Of a stretch of DNA of 64,000 nt, positions 6,032-28,775 are shown one piece after another. The notes beneath the pieces are model-generated. The model made no database searches and was not told the DNA's origin. It worked only from the letters and a program-made list of their open reading frames with translations. Both the position numbers and the translations under genes were made by a program. Location of the stretch: the NCBI GenBank assembly GCA_002163155.1, contig MAAO01000002.1:372001-436000 (forward strand), given 5' to 3'. Each line of letters opens with the position of its first letter. Position 1 is the first letter of the stretch. This stretch comes from Halobacteriovorax marinus. GTDB lineage: Bacteria; Bdellovibrionota; Bacteriovoracia; Bacteriovoracales; Bacteriovoracaceae.

Positions 6032-7372
6032 ATGATTCGTATTAAAAAAGGTTTAGATGTTCCATTGACTGGTTCACCTAAGCAAACAATCGAAGCTGGT
6101 CCTCAAGTGAAAAGAGTTGCCTTAACAGGTTCTGACTATGTCGGAATGAAGCCTTCAATGAAAGTTCAAATTGGAGAAACTGTTAAAATTGGTCAAGTTC
6201 TTTTCGAATGTAAAAAAAATGAGGGTCTTGCTTACACTTCTCCTGTGAATGGAAAAGTTGTAGAAATTAACAGAGGGGCTAAGAGAGTTTTTCAAACTCT
6301 AGTAGTCGAAGTTACAGGTCACGAGCAAATTGAGCTCACTCACTACAAGAAAAGAAGTGTAAGTGATCTTTCTTCTTCTGATGTTAGAAGCCTGCTTTTA
6401 GAGTCTGGCCAATGGACAGCTCTAAGAATGAGACCATTCTCTAAAGTTGCCTTGTTAACTGATACTCCTAAGGCCGTTTTCATTAATGCTATGGACACAA
6501 ATCCTCTGGCGGCAAACCCTGATCAAGTGATTGGGCAATACGCTGAAGATTTTAAAGCTGGTGTTGAAGTTCTTTCAAAATTAACAGAGGGAAAGACTTA
6601 CGTATGTAAGGCCGCTGGTTCAAAAATTTCTACTCCTACTAATGTTGTAGTTGAAGAGTTTGCTGGACCACATCCTGCTGGATTAGTTGGAACTCATATT
6701 CACTTCTTAGATGCAGTACATGCTGACAAGACTGTGTGGCATGCTGGTTACCAAGACGTTATCGCAATTGGTAAACTTTTTACGACTGGAAAAATTTGGT
6801 CTGAAAGAGTGATTTCTGTAGCGGGACCAAAGGCTAAGAATCCAAGACTACTTACAACAACTCTTGGGGCCAACGTTTTAGATATCGTTGCCAATGAGCA
6901 AGAGTCTGGAGAACTTAGAATAGTTTCTGGTTCTGTATTAAATGGTCGTAAAGTTGAAGATGCTTATATTTTCCTTGGACGTTACCACAATCAAATTTCA
7001 ATTTTAGAAGAAGGACGTGAAAGAGAGTTCTTAGGTTGGCAGATGCCAGGACTTAATAAATTCTCTATAAAGAGAACTTTTGTTTCTAAGTTCTTTACTC
7101 CTTCTAAGAAATTTAACATGAATACAACAACTCATGGTTCTGCAAGAGCTATGGTTCCTGTAGGAATGTATGAAAGAGTAATACCAATGGATGTTCTTCC
7201 AACTCAACTTCTTAGGTCTTTATTGACTAAGGATACTGACTTAGCTCAACAGCTTGGTTGTTTAGAGTTTGATGAAGAAGATTTAGCACTATGTACTTTT
7301 GCTAGTGTAGGTAAGAAGGACTTTGGTCCTATTCTTAGAGAAAGTTTAACAATTATTGAGAAGGAAGGATAA
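6032..7372 (+). CDS. nqrA: Na+-translocating NADH:quinone reductase subunit A
   Basis: 446 residues, the length of Vibrio NqrA, starting with the family opening [14 protein letters not shown] and containing [15 protein letters not shown], a hallmark of NqrA. NqrA is the cytoplasmic subunit without redox centres described for ubiquinone interaction in the six-subunit NQR complex, which couples NADH oxidation to Na+ export. It is first gene of nqrABCDEF. The region upstream of the ATG has only a weak ribosome site (GGGA 12 bases away). The 275-base upstream gap holds two terminators of the previous gene and presumably the operon promoter. Confidence 0.98.
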
Positions 7373-23817: not shown

Positions 23818-23956
23818 AGAAATTATTTTTTAAACATTACCAGAGTATTTTAAAAAGTCTACCTTAAGTACTAAAAAAAGTGAGATCTTCTTGAAAGGTA
23901 TGAACAGTGTGTTAAAATTAATTATTAAATTTAATTAAGTTAGGGAATGAATGCTC

Positions 23957-25468
23957 ATGAAAATATATCTAACTCTTATTTTGGTGTTGCTAATCTCTAG
24001 TTGTGCTAAGAAGACACATAAAATTGTACCTGTCGTGGCAAAGTCCTCATGGTTAAAGACCAATGATCTCTATAATCATAAATCCCACAATGGTGAGTAT
24101 CTTATCCATCCATTCTTTGACCTTGTGCCTTTTGCTTCTAGGCAAGATAACTCAATTAATTTTGTCATGACGACACCCGCAGGAGCGAGAAATAAGTATA
24201 AATTAGATCTCCGTTCCGGAAAGATGTATCGCAGACATCAGTTTTGTGACCAAAAGGATGTTTGGAAGAAGTATTCTGGAAATATATATAGACCTCCTTA
24301 TACAGAAGGTTTTGTTCCAAGGTTACTAGATCAACTTGGAACACCACAGAAAATTATAGTCTTTGGAAAGAATCGATATTTCCAAGATTTTGAATTAACA
24401 CCAACAAGATCTCAAAGAGTTCGTGTGGTGGGTAGTGTTTTGCAGCAGTACTGTAAATCATTTCCTTGCCGTGGGAAAAATAGGTGGCAGTCGCGTTTAG
24501 TTTTGGTGGCGGTTAATCCATTTGATCCTACCTTCGAAAGAATTCATCATATTAATCAATTAAGGAAAATTGTTGATTGGCCCTATGTCAAAACCTTCAT
24601 CGAAAATAGTGATGGAAGGCATATCTCTGGTAAGGAAGATACGCCCGCTTATAGGGTTATAGGTAATATTGGACCTAAAGAATCACTAGTTAATTCCATT
24701 AGCAAGGGACATTTATTTAAATTCAAAGAGCTCAAGGTTCTGAGAAATAGCTGTCATAAATTCTATGATCATATATGGAGTAGTGTTGAAGAAATACGAA
24801 AGAAGAAGCGATTAAATAAATTAGGATTAAGTCCAAAGATAGCTCATATTTGGGATAAGAAAGATGCTCTAAGTGGAAATGTTCTCAGTGGTGAGATTGA
24901 AGAGGTTAGGAAAAAAGATGTTATTGATACTAGTATTAGAACTTCTGACTTTTCGATTTACTTTAAACACTTTTATAAGAATTATCGAAAGCGTTTCCTC
25001 ACATGCCAGAAGTTCGTCAGAGACACTAGTATAAATGCAAATAAGAGAAGACTATGGTTCTTTAGCTATTTAACCTCTTTTTTTAATGCTGAGCGTTTAG
25101 GTTATATCTATTCGTGTTCAAGACAAACTTGGATTGAGAATCCTATGCTGGCAAATGGAAAGAGAATGTATGGTCACAAGAGAAACTTGGCAAACTGCAC
25201 AAGCAGAGAACTTGATCGTTCTTTTGATATGAGCATTACAGTTCAAACTGGTCTCTTTCGTTCATTCCAGGAGCATAATCGCTATATTGAATATGATGAA
25301 GGGTCTGGCGCCACACATCAAAAGCTCTATTCTTGGGTTAGAAGTACAGGGGATGGTTACTCGTGTGACCGCAAGCGTTACGAAAAGGTTTCTCTATTTC
25401 CTCAAGATATTAATTGGCAGAGCTTTGGAGAGAAAGGTATGCGAAAGAGAACTGATATAATTCAATAG
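23957..25468 (+). CDS. Large hypothetical lipoprotein
   Basis: About 503 residues. The N-terminal MKIYLTLILVLLISSC is a lipoprotein signal (lipobox ISSC); in-frame ATGs at 23951 and 23957 are both possible, and the second has the better spacing from AGGGA. The mature protein is basic and rich in Tyr, Arg and Trp with scattered cysteine pairs (YCKSFPC near 160, CSRQTW, CDRKRY), giving no family that I recognise. No catalytic motif stands out. It is probably anchored in the outer or inner membrane facing the periplasm. Single gene between the tRNA and the nuo genes. Confidence 0.8.
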   Translation: MKIYLTLILVLLISSCAKKTHKIVPVVAKSSWLKTNDLYNHKSHNGEYLIHPFFDLVPFASRQDNSINFVMTTPAGARNKYKLDLRSGKMYRRHQFCDQKDVWKKYSGNIYRPPYTEGFVPRLLDQLGTPQKIIVFGKNRYFQDFELTPTRSQRVRVVGSVLQQYCKSFPCRGKNRWQSRLVLVAVNPFDPTFERIHHINQLRKIVDWPYVKTFIENSDGRHISGKEDTPAYRVIGNIGPKESLVNSISKGHLFKFKELKVLRNSCHKFYDHIWSSVEEIRKKKRLNKLGLSPKIAHIWDKKDALSGNVLSGEIEEVRKKDVIDTSIRTSDFSIYFKHFYKNYRKRFLTCQKFVRDTSINANKRRLWFFSYLTSFFNAERLGYIYSCSRQTWIENPMLANGKRMYGHKRNLANCTSRELDRSFDMSITVQTGLFRSFQEHNRYIEYDEGSGATHQKLYSWVRSTGDGYSCDRKRYEKVSLFPQDINWQSFGEKGMRKRTDIIQ

Positions 25469-25529: not shown

Positions 25530-26054
25530 ATGGCTAGAGAGGCAGACGGCCTGTCGTTTTTACAAACACAAGGACCAGAAGGAATTGATAAGTTAGCACT
25601 CACAACACGTGCTGATTCATTTCTTGAAAAATTTGATAATTGGGTTCAATCTCATTCGATTGTGCCTTTCGTATTTGATACTGCATGCTGTTCTTTAGAG
25701 TATGGATGGCACTTTAACGACCAATTTGCTCATGACAGTTTTAGTCCTGAACAAATAGAGGCCTGTGATAGTGATCTACTCTTAATTGGTGGAACAATTA
25801 ATTTAAAAACCTATCCGCTTATTAGAAAAACCTATGAGCAAATGCCTAAGAAGAAATGGGTCGTGGCCATAGGAGCATGTCCTATGTCTGGTGGACCCTT
25901 CCCATCGTATAATGTCGTTAAAGATGTATCTAAGGATATCCCTGTTGATATTTTTATCCCTGGTTGTCCTCCAACTCCACAAGATATAATGGATGGAATG
26001 AAATTGTTAAAACAAAGAATTGAGATGGGAGTGATGGCAAGTGGTAACTCCTAA
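25530..26054 (+). CDS. nuoB: NADH dehydrogenase (complex I) subunit B-like
   Basis: 174 residues, matching NuoB. All four ligands of the N2 [4Fe-4S] cluster are in place: Cys53-Cys54 (DTACCSLEY), Cys117 (AIGACPMSGGPF) and Cys146 (IPGCPPTP). In complex I this subunit hands electrons to quinone together with NuoD. Ribosome site AAAGGAA. It overlaps nuoCD by 14 bases. No nuoA precedes it and no nuoE-N genes are here, so it belongs to a stand-alone Q-module set. Confidence 0.95.
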   Translation: MAREADGLSFLQTQGPEGIDKLALTTRADSFLEKFDNWVQSHSIVPFVFDTACCSLEYGWHFNDQFAHDSFSPEQIEACDSDLLLIGGTINLKTYPLIRKTYEQMPKKKWVVAIGACPMSGGPFPSYNVVKDVSKDIPVDIFIPGCPPTPQDIMDGMKLLKQRIEMGVMASGNS

Positions 26055-27675
26055 TTCGTTCTTAAACTACTATAGTGGTAAACTTAATGTCATAGATGAT
26101 TCTAATGCAGAATTGATTCTTGAACCCAATGAAGATATTAAAGGTATTTTTAAAAAGTTGAAAGAAGAGTTTGGATTTATCATGCTCATTGATATCTTTG
26201 GCCTAGATCTTTTAAAGAAGAAGTCGTTTGACCCGCAAAATGAAAGACGATTTCAAGTTGTCTATATACTTCTAAATATGGAAATGCATTTACGTCTTCG
26301 AGTCGTTGTGAATGTTGATGTCGAAAAGAATGAAGTTCTTCCTAGTTGTCGTGATCTTTGGGCAGCCGCTCACTGGTGTGAGAGAGAAATTTGGGAAATG
26401 TTTGGTATCTCGTTTGGCACTGAAAGTGAAAAGCGATTACTTAGCGTAAGTGGTCTTAAAGGGTTTCCTTTTAGAAAAGACTTTTCTTTTAATGGGCTGG
26501 ATGAATCTTTGGATTCTGAAGAAAGCATATTTGAAAATATTACAGATGTTCCAAAATATAAGTTAAATCTAGTCGATAGTTTTAGTATCGGTCCAATTCA
26601 TCCGGCGCTAAAAGGATCAATGAAGTTACATCTACAAATTGAGGGAGATGGAATTCTCAACTCTCAATTAGAAGTTGGTTATCTACATCGATCTATAGAA
26701 AAATTATGTGAAGAAAAATTGTATACGCAAATCATTCCACTGACTGATCGATTGAACTTCTTTTCTGCTGCAAGTAATAATATCGGTTGGTGTAAGGCAG
26801 TAGAAGATCTTGTTAATATTGAGATTAGTGATAAGGCCAAGGCAATGAGAATGGTTGCCAGTGAACTTGCAAGAGTGAGTGATCATACGCAATGTATTGG
26901 TTCAATTGCAAGAGCGGTAGGAATGTTTGAACCTATCCAACTTTCTATCAGTATTAAAGAGATCGTCTCTTCGCTTTTTGAAAGATTGTGTGGGTCTCGT
27001 TTTAATTCTTCAATATCTCGAATTGGTGGAATGAGTGTAGAGGTTCCGAGCGGTTGGGTTAACGACTGTTTAACCACACTAAAAGTTATTTCTAAAAAAG
27101 TGGATGAGATTGACACTCACTTAACTCGCTCAACATTGTGGATAGAAAGACTTCGTACAACCACATTAAATGCCTATGATGCCATTGATCTTGGAATAAC
27201 GGGACCGAACTTAAGGGCCTGTGGAGTCAATTATGATATTAGAAAAGTTTCACCTTATTATTTCTATGAAGATGTCGAATTTGAAATACCTCTTGGGATT
27301 AATGGTGATTGTTATGACCGCTACTTAGTAAGAATTGAAGAAATACGTCAATCTTTAAAAATTATCTCACAAGTTTTAGATAGCTTACCTCTTGGGAAAA
27401 TGTGTGTTGATAAACTTAAGACTGAACTAGATTTAAATCCTCTTAACTTTGCTCCAAATCTTTGTGAAGGTTATTCAATGACAGAAACTCCAAATGGAGA
27501 GTTAGGTTTCTTTATTTCTTCTGACGGTGAGAATCGACCCTATAGAGTTAAAATTAAAGGGCCATCTTTTTTCTCGGCACAAGCATTTTCTTCAATGTTA
27601 GAAAACACGAAAGTAAACGATGCAATGATTTCTCTGTGTTCGATGAATATAGTTGCAGGAGAGGTTGATAGATGA
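26041..27675 (+). CDS. nuoCD: Fused NuoC-NuoD complex I-like subunit with altered quinone site
   Basis: 544 residues; NuoC (about 1-150, with HWCEREIWEMFGI and FPFRKDF) is fused to NuoD (about 180-544, ending in SDGENRPYRVKIKGPSFF and MNIVAGEVDR). In complex I, the NuoD N-terminal loop and a tyrosine hold the quinone head. Here the loop reads GPIHPALKG, with Lys191 where the conserved His sits, and TDRLNF, with Phe240 where the conserved Tyr sits. No [NiFe] cysteine pairs are present, so it is not a hydrogenase subunit. GTG start at 26041, GGGAG upstream; the stop overlaps the NuoI-like gene by four bases. Confidence 0.93.
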   Translation: MVTPNSFLNYYSGKLNVIDDSNAELILEPNEDIKGIFKKLKEEFGFIMLIDIFGLDLLKKKSFDPQNERRFQVVYILLNMEMHLRLRVVVNVDVEKNEVLPSCRDLWAAAHWCEREIWEMFGISFGTESEKRLLSVSGLKGFPFRKDFSFNGLDESLDSEESIFENITDVPKYKLNLVDSFSIGPIHPALKGSMKLHLQIEGDGILNSQLEVGYLHRSIEKLCEEKLYTQIIPLTDRLNFFSAASNNIGWCKAVEDLVNIEISDKAKAMRMVASELARVSDHTQCIGSIARAVGMFEPIQLSISIKEIVSSLFERLCGSRFNSSISRIGGMSVEVPSGWVNDCLTTLKVISKKVDEIDTHLTRSTLWIERLRTTTLNAYDAIDLGITGPNLRACGVNYDIRKVSPYYFYEDVEFEIPLGINGDCYDRYLVRIEEIRQSLKIISQVLDSLPLGKMCVDKLKTELDLNPLNFAPNLCEGYSMTETPNGELGFFISSDGENRPYRVKIKGPSFFSAQAFSSMLENTKVNDAMISLCSMNIVAGEVDR

Positions 27676-28061
27676 TCTTAGAAAGAGAGCTATATAAATC
27701 AATCGGGGCCACTAGAGCAATTGCAAAATCGCTTAGAGTTTACTTTGTCACTATTATTTCTGGATTAATAAAACCAAGACTACAATTAGTGACTAGTTTT
27801 TCTAGAGGACTCCCTGAACTTATAGATTCTAAAAATTGTTCTAATTGCAAGAAATGTGAATTGATTTGCCCTACGAATTGTTTGAGTATTGAAGAGAAAT
27901 CTGATCAACTAGAGAGTTTTATTTTAGATGTCAGTGCCTGTATTTTTTGTGGTCTTTGTAGTGATGTATGTTCCCCCAAAGTGTTAACTCTTACTGATCA
28001 TAGACCTCTGGCTTCTCATGGTGAGAGTCTCTGGAAAATTGATTTAATGAAGAGAGAGTAG
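27672..28061 (+). CDS. nuoI: NuoI-like 2x[4Fe-4S] ferredoxin subunit
   Basis: 129 residues, shorter than typical NuoI (about 160-180). Two cluster motifs are complete: CSNCKKCELICP (about 56-67) and CIFCGLCSDVC (about 94-104). The amphipathic N-terminal 40 residues resemble the membrane-contact helix of NuoI. Overlaps nuoCD by four bases (ATGA). It completes a nuoB-CD-I set that corresponds to the connecting Q-module of complex I. A glycosyltransferase gene starts three bases later. Confidence 0.88.
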   Translation: MILERELYKSIGATRAIAKSLRVYFVTIISGLIKPRLQLVTSFSRGLPELIDSKNCSNCKKCELICPTNCLSIEEKSDQLESFILDVSACIFCGLCSDVCSPKVLTLTDHRPLASHGESLWKIDLMKRE

Positions 28062-28064
28062 TCA

Positions 28065-28775
28065 TTGCAAAAGAACATTTCAATAATATTTTCTGTCTTC
28101 AATGAACTTAGTCTTACATTTTTTGAAGCTTCCTTGAAGCAATTATGTTGTAACCCAAGGGTTGAAGTCATTTGTGTTGATGGTGGAAGCACAGATGGTA
28201 CTAAAGAATTAGTTAAAAGTTATGGAGCAATATTAATTGAAACTCAGGGGCATTCAAGGGCACATCGATTAAATGTTGGAATTTATAGTGCACAAAATGA
28301 TTTAATTTTCCTACATCACCCTAGAAGTTTCATTGATGCTACAGCTATTGAGTATATGTTAGAGCATTACGAGGAATTGAAGTGGGGTGGTTTAACTCAT
28401 CGATTTGATCAAACACACTTTCTTTTAAAATTTACTTCTTGGTATTCTAATAATGTACGGGCAAAGATTAGAGAAATTTTCTATCTCGATCATTGTATTT
28501 ATTTTAAGCGATCACTGTTTTCTACTTACCAAACGATAGTTCCTGAAATTGTTATCTTTGAGGATACTGCCTTAAGTGAAAGGCTTTCTCATGTGGCCCC
28601 TGGAGTTTTACTTCCATTTGAATCTACAACATCTTCCATTCGTTTTAATAAAAATGGAGTTTATAAACAGGCCCTTCTTAATCAAATCATGAAAATAGGG
28701 TACCTGTTAAATATCTCTGATGAAGTTATGAATAAAGTATATGAGAAAGGACTTTCGTTAAACTCTAAATATTAG
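28065..28775 (+). CDS. Family 2 glycosyltransferase
   Basis: 236 residues from TTG 28065 (AGAGAGAG upstream). GT-A fold features: SIIFSVFNE at the N-terminus, VICVDGGSTDGTKELV for nucleotide-sugar binding, GHSRAHRLNVGI, and a following LIFLHHPRS where a DxD-like block is expected (not a classical DXD). It resembles the TIGR04283-type glycosyltransferases of unknown acceptor. Cotranscribed with the nuo genes by spacing, probably without functional linkage. Overlaps the convergent aat gene by four bases. Confidence 0.88.
   Translation: MQKNISIIFSVFNELSLTFFEASLKQLCCNPRVEVICVDGGSTDGTKELVKSYGAILIETQGHSRAHRLNVGIYSAQNDLIFLHHPRSFIDATAIEYMLEHYEELKWGGLTHRFDQTHFLLKFTSWYSNNVRAKIREIFYLDHCIYFKRSLFSTYQTIVPEIVIFEDTALSERLSHVAPGVLLPFESTTSSIRFNKNGVYKQALLNQIMKIGYLLNISDEVMNKVYEKGLSLNSKY

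Follow-up and report, generated by a model that had tools for sequence, protein, structure and literature searches.

Respiratory complex I (NDH-1) is an assembly of 14 subunits whose conservation is usually ascribed to its role in coupling electron transfer to the pumping of ions. A smaller kind with 11 subunits, which lacks NuoE, NuoF and NuoG (EFG-less), is also known. This kind, represented by Fpo and the ferredoxin-type NDH-1, has no NADH module, combines a Q-module with a seven-gene membrane arm, and retains the quinone ligands and the proton-channel residues; the type b set of the organism described here belongs to the same kind, from which its residues are presumed. Group 4 [NiFe] hydrogenases, such as Mbh and formate hydrogenlyase (HycE/HyfG), possess a fused C-D protein with NuoB- and NuoI-like partners, and pseudoenzymes conserve a fold that persists under selection after its catalytic residues have been lost. 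In a published account (PMC8119997), the head group of quinone is coordinated by one tyrosine and one histidine of NuoD, and the Na+-NQR of Bacteriovorax marinus is already known (PMC4014512).

A window of 64,000 nucleotides from Halobacteriovorax marinus (contig MAAO01000002.1, positions 372,001 to 436,000) encodes, in a run of three genes, homologues of all the Q-module subunits of complex I: NuoB, NuoC/D and NuoI. This trio resembles NDH-1 in these homologues and in its gene order, and its intact relatives hold E, F and G together with a full second membrane arm. However, the set of the window differs from NDH-1 in the absence of NuoE/F/G, in the replacement of His38 and Tyr87 of NuoD, in the loss of the NuoK glutamates, and in putative membrane subunits that are shortened, highly diverged and encoded at a distant second locus. 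With the EFG-less 11-subunit kind it shares the lack of an NADH module and probably the combination of a Q-module with a seven-gene arm, but it groups as sister of EFG-bearing sets and has lost quinone-ligand and channel residues. Unlike group 4 [NiFe] hydrogenases, its NuoCD holds no CxxC nickel ligands, and, in contrast to described pseudoenzymes, the likeness here concerns an entire multi-subunit membrane complex. We consider it likely that the trio is the Q-module of an altered second paralogue of complex I, that a second membrane arm (arm 2) is its partner, and that selection has kept both. Searches of the literature on Bacteriovorax, on a second complex I or a degenerate one, and on complex I as a pseudoenzyme returned no description of such a complex.

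The trio and its immediate neighbourhood

An earlier note, made from the letters of the window alone, had reported three overlapping genes for NuoB, a NuoC-NuoD fusion and NuoI, with all Fe-S ligands of NuoB and NuoI retained, and both observations have been confirmed by open reading frames (ORFs), family models and structure matches (Table 1). The overlaps between the ORFs measure 14 bp (nuoB/nuoCD) and 4 bp (nuoCD/nuoI). Searches with Pfam and NCBIfam match NuoB to Oxidored_q6 (1.8e-22), NuoCD to Complex1_49kDa (1.6e-74) and 30kDa (1.7e-27), and NuoI to its family (1.8e-13). Together with the solved-structure matches, these models leave no doubt about NuoB and NuoCD and give good support for the two-cluster domain of NuoI. 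Sequence inspection and alignment show the C-C/C/C pattern of NuoB, and 12/12 Fe-S cysteines are present in the trio, as they are throughout the genus (five members, G000-G004).

Table 1. Features of the locus and of its proposed membrane partner (window positions unless contig C5 is named)
Feature	Position	Strand	Description
LP, lipoprotein gene	23951..25468	+	immediately precedes the trio in nearly all relatives
nuoB-like gene ("type c" NuoB)	25530..26054	+	174 aa; 4/4 N2 cysteines kept
fused nuoC-nuoD gene (nuoCD)	26041..27675	+	544 aa; GTG start
short nuoI-like gene	27672..28061	+	129 aa; two complete CxxCxxCxxxC motifs
arm 2, seven membrane ORFs	C5, about 162588-167892		first ORF overlaps the nuoN stop

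A [NiFe] hydrogenase-type enzyme was considered and rejected: nickel-ligand CxxC motifs are absent from the NuoCD sequence of the window, the hydrogenase models score far below those of NuoD on this protein, and its best matches are NuoD proteins of complex I. No other nuo genes were found in the window, either among its ORFs or by genome-wide family matches, so that the claim of a trio with no further complex I genes holds within the window; it fails for the genome, other contigs of which carry a NuoH, a second NuoD and complete operons for membrane subunits. As to the Na+-NQR that had been placed in the same window, an NqrA domain is found at 6035-6313, and the other nqr genes are assigned tentatively by ORF size and order. 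Downstream of the trio and on the same strand, a gene for a TIGR04283-like glycosyltransferase, scoring below the family cut-off, occupies window positions 28065-28775; this neighbour is found in the genus of the window and in G013, and not in most other relatives.

The lipoprotein gene LP also heads the ancestor-like run LP-B-CD-E-F-G-I, and it is tied to the trio by its position. Its AlphaFold model is confident (pLDDT 86), with family I inorganic pyrophosphatases as the best PDB matches (E about 1e-8). The DGDPxD aspartates are absent, LGTPQK being found at that place, and the protein holds many invariant cysteines. LP would be a secreted, probably inactive protein with a pyrophosphatase fold. 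LP is present in 109/129 genomes, and in G009 and G021 it is retained with no trio beside it, which weakens the idea that it is a strict functional partner of the trio.

Complex I genes elsewhere in the genome

The genome of the organism (4.5 Mb) encodes one canonical NuoH and, besides the NuoD of the window, one other NuoD. The latter belongs to a canonical set of nuoB-C-D-I genes on C1 (L032 9088-11929), and NuoH to a canonical operon, nuoA-H-J-K-L-M-N, on C5 (arm 1; L009; L053 2873-10589). PF00361 finds in this genome the three canonical antiporter subunits and no others. Searches of the genome with PF01512, PF01257 and PF10588 found no NuoF, NuoE or NuoG, which bears out the earlier note's view of the trio as a Q-module that lacks an NADH module and differs from standard complex I. 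The organism thus carries an EFG-less complex I (the type b set) in addition to the trio of the window. That canonical set, divided between the two loci of B-C-D-I and A-H-J-K-L-M-N, is likewise without an NADH module in the genome. A split standard complex I, of which the trio would be one part, was rejected because both canonical gene groups exist separately and the trio is placed on its own NuoD branch.

The genome search that had been recommended for nuoA, E-H and J-N thus returned, besides the missing E, F and G, a canonical A-H-J-K-L-M-N operon. Arm 2 directly follows this operon, and its ORFs encode proteins of 106, 319, 166, 93, 510, 265 and 335 aa, those of canonical arm 1 measuring, in the same order, 143, 386, 176, 101, 728, 515 and 492 aa. 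By a simple hydropathy count, the predicted helices number about 3-8-5-3-15-10-11 in arm 2 of the genus and 3-8-5-3-17-14-14 in the canonical arm. None of the seven arm 2 ORFs was recognised by Pfam, the weak matches of the protein in the NuoK slot including NuoK itself (E 0.29). After the membrane-arm run, at L053 15997-19185, lies a gene for a 1062-aa protein with many TPRs, which is adjacent to that run in nearly all relatives, even where arm 2 is absent.

A graded series in the relatives

The comparison of neighbourhoods that the earlier note had called for gave a graded series, from an intact LP-B-CD-E-F-G-I run to the trio form. At the intact end, G017 and G041 hold a clearly recognisable second AHJKLMN at the place of arm 2 and LP-B-CD-E-F-G-I at the trio locus. 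E-F-G are also present at this locus in the Bacteriovorax and Bacteriovoracaceae contigs L082-L090 and L092, some of them cut by contig ends; the genus of the window belongs to the same class and family as the named contigs of these groups and of Halobacteriovorax. Intermediate sets have been found in G023, G098, G097, G080, G137, G040 and others, and pieces of E, F and G are kept in G063, G136 and G142. In G008, degenerate NuoE, NuoF and NuoG lie between CD and I (L039 8681-11492), and its NuoF has lost the region of the NADH site and kept an N3-like SCGACLGC motif. In G022, the genes A-B-CD-H-I-J-K-L-M-N form a compact run that lacks E, F and G (L047 5908-15001), and in the tree described below its NuoD is not a member of the type c group.

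In profile comparisons, arm 2 of G017, G023 and G022 proves to encode NuoA to NuoN (E 1e-13 to 1e-95), and the NuoH proteins of intermediate sets match the ancestor-like set (E about 1e-9 to 1e-37). The protein in the NuoH slot of the window's genus shows a weak link by hhalign to the NuoH of G013/G040 (E 1.7e-4 over 256 columns, probability 49%). An iterative search over a reduced set reached part of the graded series but did not extend to the genus of the window. The sequence link of the genus's arm 2 to complex I is thus confined to this hhalign match of the NuoH slot. The A, J, K, L, M and N slots of the genus gave no significant sequence link to Nuo subunits; their identity is given by gene order, helix counts and the intermediates. 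Across the arm 2 comparisons, slot-matched pairs beat slot-mismatched ones (p=0.0018), and the gene order is conserved even in genera whose membrane proteins can no longer be aligned. A second arm is present in the window's genome and in 31 other sets, nearly always after nuoN. The earlier description of the Q-module as "free" has therefore not stood, since synteny and the graded relatives assign arm 2 to the trio. The two are not strictly bound, as some genera other than the window's carry the trio without arm 2: in G056 and the g56 members, nuoN is directly followed by the TPR gene.

In a NuoD tree of 85 rows, the type c rows group together, separate from the canonical NuoD of the phylum, from other phyla and from the type b row. 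The separate branch that had been suggested for the trio's set is thus recovered. Within type c, the rows with intact EFG and those without it lie on the two sides of one branch, so that the window's set appears as the sister of EFG-bearing sets in this tree, which was built by a quick method and has its long branches flagged.

Loss of catalytic residues

The histidine and tyrosine of NuoD that coordinate quinone are those at positions 38 and 87. Measured against the NuoD of T. thermophilus, the three key positions of which were checked, the NuoD of the window holds Lys instead of His38, Phe instead of Tyr87 and Ala instead of Asp139. His38-Tyr87-Asp139 is found in all type c sets whose EFG is intact, and the other type c sets have lost His38 with the apparent exception of G081, in which the other two positions differ. 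In the membrane arm, both channel glutamates are absent from 5/5 arm-2 NuoK-slot proteins of the genus in an alignment of weakly similar sequences. Judged from these residues, the set of the trio is predicted to lack the functional quinone site and the pumping arm that characterize ferredoxin-type complex I. Losses among relatives go further: the N2 cysteines are gone in many rows, with about eight losses on the tree, and the NuoI motifs have been lost in G007, G019, G024, G075, G076, G085, G056 and the g56 group.

Proposed assembly and alternative explanations

It is proposed that the ancestor was a complete 14-subunit NADH:quinone oxidoreductase, encoded by LP-B-CD-E-F-G-I and a second nuoA-H-J-K-L-M-N. 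In the lineage of the window, NuoE, NuoF and NuoG were lost and NuoD lost its quinone-ligand His and Tyr, while the membrane subunits would have diverged almost beyond recognition with their order, helix counts and open frames retained. Synteny and the graded relatives indicate that the partner arm is the seven-gene run that overlaps the end of canonical nuoN on another contig, and the trio and arm 2 would probably form a membrane-docked, complex-I-shaped assembly. This assembly is probably catalytically altered and pseudoenzyme-like, although in the genus it may still carry Fe-S clusters; its residues make normal quinone reduction and pumping through NuoK unlikely, and its retained task could be scaffolding, regulation or a new reaction. 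The proposal of a novel oxidoreductase rather than complex I is accordingly less apt than that of a derived NADH complex I whose quinone ligands have been lost.

As a tentative extension, which we regard as a real possibility, the product may be a complex-I-shaped membrane machine without any redox chemistry, recruited for a new mechanical, regulatory or scaffolding job. Such a pseudoenzyme complex would span a class of predatory bacteria and include several genera without the N2 and NuoI clusters. For the window's genus, the main rival is remaining electron transfer, a rather unlikely reading in which an 11-subunit, NADH-module-free enzyme would pass electrons from ferredoxin, flavodoxin or another donor through NuoI and N2 to an altered acceptor site. 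Some redox chemistry could survive the replacement of His38 or Tyr87, and the 12 Fe-S cysteines, including the NuoI motifs, kept throughout G000-G004 argue for some remaining transfer, as do the low omega of NuoB among G001/G003/G004 and the precedent of EFG-less 11-subunit complex I. Nevertheless, both quinone ligands are replaced, both NuoK channel glutamates are gone, and in sister genera the proteins persist although their N2 or NuoI ligands are gone, and therefore selection in those genera is not for electron transfer.

An improbable explanation is that the trio serves as an alternative peripheral arm on canonical arm 1, swapping with canonical B-C-D-I. Arms 1 and 2 do share one gene run, and the genome has a single canonical NuoH. 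However, arm 1 already has its canonical B-C-D-I set, intact relatives own a second arm, the trio persists in four genomes in which no NuoH was found (G012, G054, G058 and G060), and arm 1 occurs in G006 and G009, in which no type c set was found.

Still less probable than such a swap is that the trio and arm 2 are a decaying, functionless relic on its way out, a reading favoured by fast evolution, by the loss of motifs and by a stepwise disappearance of genes in which LP outlasts the others (G009 and G021). Against it, no internal stops occur in the type c NuoCD frames that were listed for members of the class, and gene order is conserved where the membrane proteins are unalignable. In addition, third codon positions differ most in every gene, and omega lies well below 1, at about 0.05-0.17 for the trio among G001/G003/G004, 0.25-0.31 for G000/G002 (with no NuoI value), about 0.10-0.48 for arm 2 and about 0.01-0.12 for arm 1 in pairs within the genus; these values are rough, dS being near or beyond saturation and several pairs giving no dS. 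The frames of the trio and arm 2 thus stay open under purifying selection.

The soluble, membrane-independent Q-module enzyme that the earlier note had envisaged is the least probable reading. G054, G058 and G060, which have the trio with no NuoH found by genome search, speak for it, but a second arm accompanies the trio in the window's genome and in 31 other sets, and the arm-less trios examined have lost N2 and therefore do not qualify as the free Fe-S oxidoreductases that were envisaged.

If the trio and arm 2 do represent an altered paralogue, a set of complex I subunits has been kept through the loss of electron entry, of the quinone ligands and, repeatedly, of the terminal Fe-S cluster. 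Within one class, the gradation of sets from intact to altered offers a natural experiment on the mutual dependence of the parts of complex I, and genes now annotated as NADH dehydrogenase subunits become named candidates for another role in predatory bacteria.

Na+-NQR and the NADH function

The same series also informs how Na+-NQR replaces complex I. In the lineage of the window, NADH oxidation would have passed to Na+-NQR, and this replacement is likely because NuoF and NQR nearly exclude each other and because NQR is missing from the genus that keeps E, F and G. NqrA was found in 77/129 genomes. Complex-I-type NuoF, assigned manually on the basis of frame lengths and of the contigs shared, occurs together with NqrA in 4 genomes and alone in 38, while 73 have NQR alone and 14 have neither, several of these 14 being incomplete (Fisher p=1.5e-16, uncorrected for ancestry). 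In g14, the genus with intact EFG at the trio locus, NQR was found in no member.
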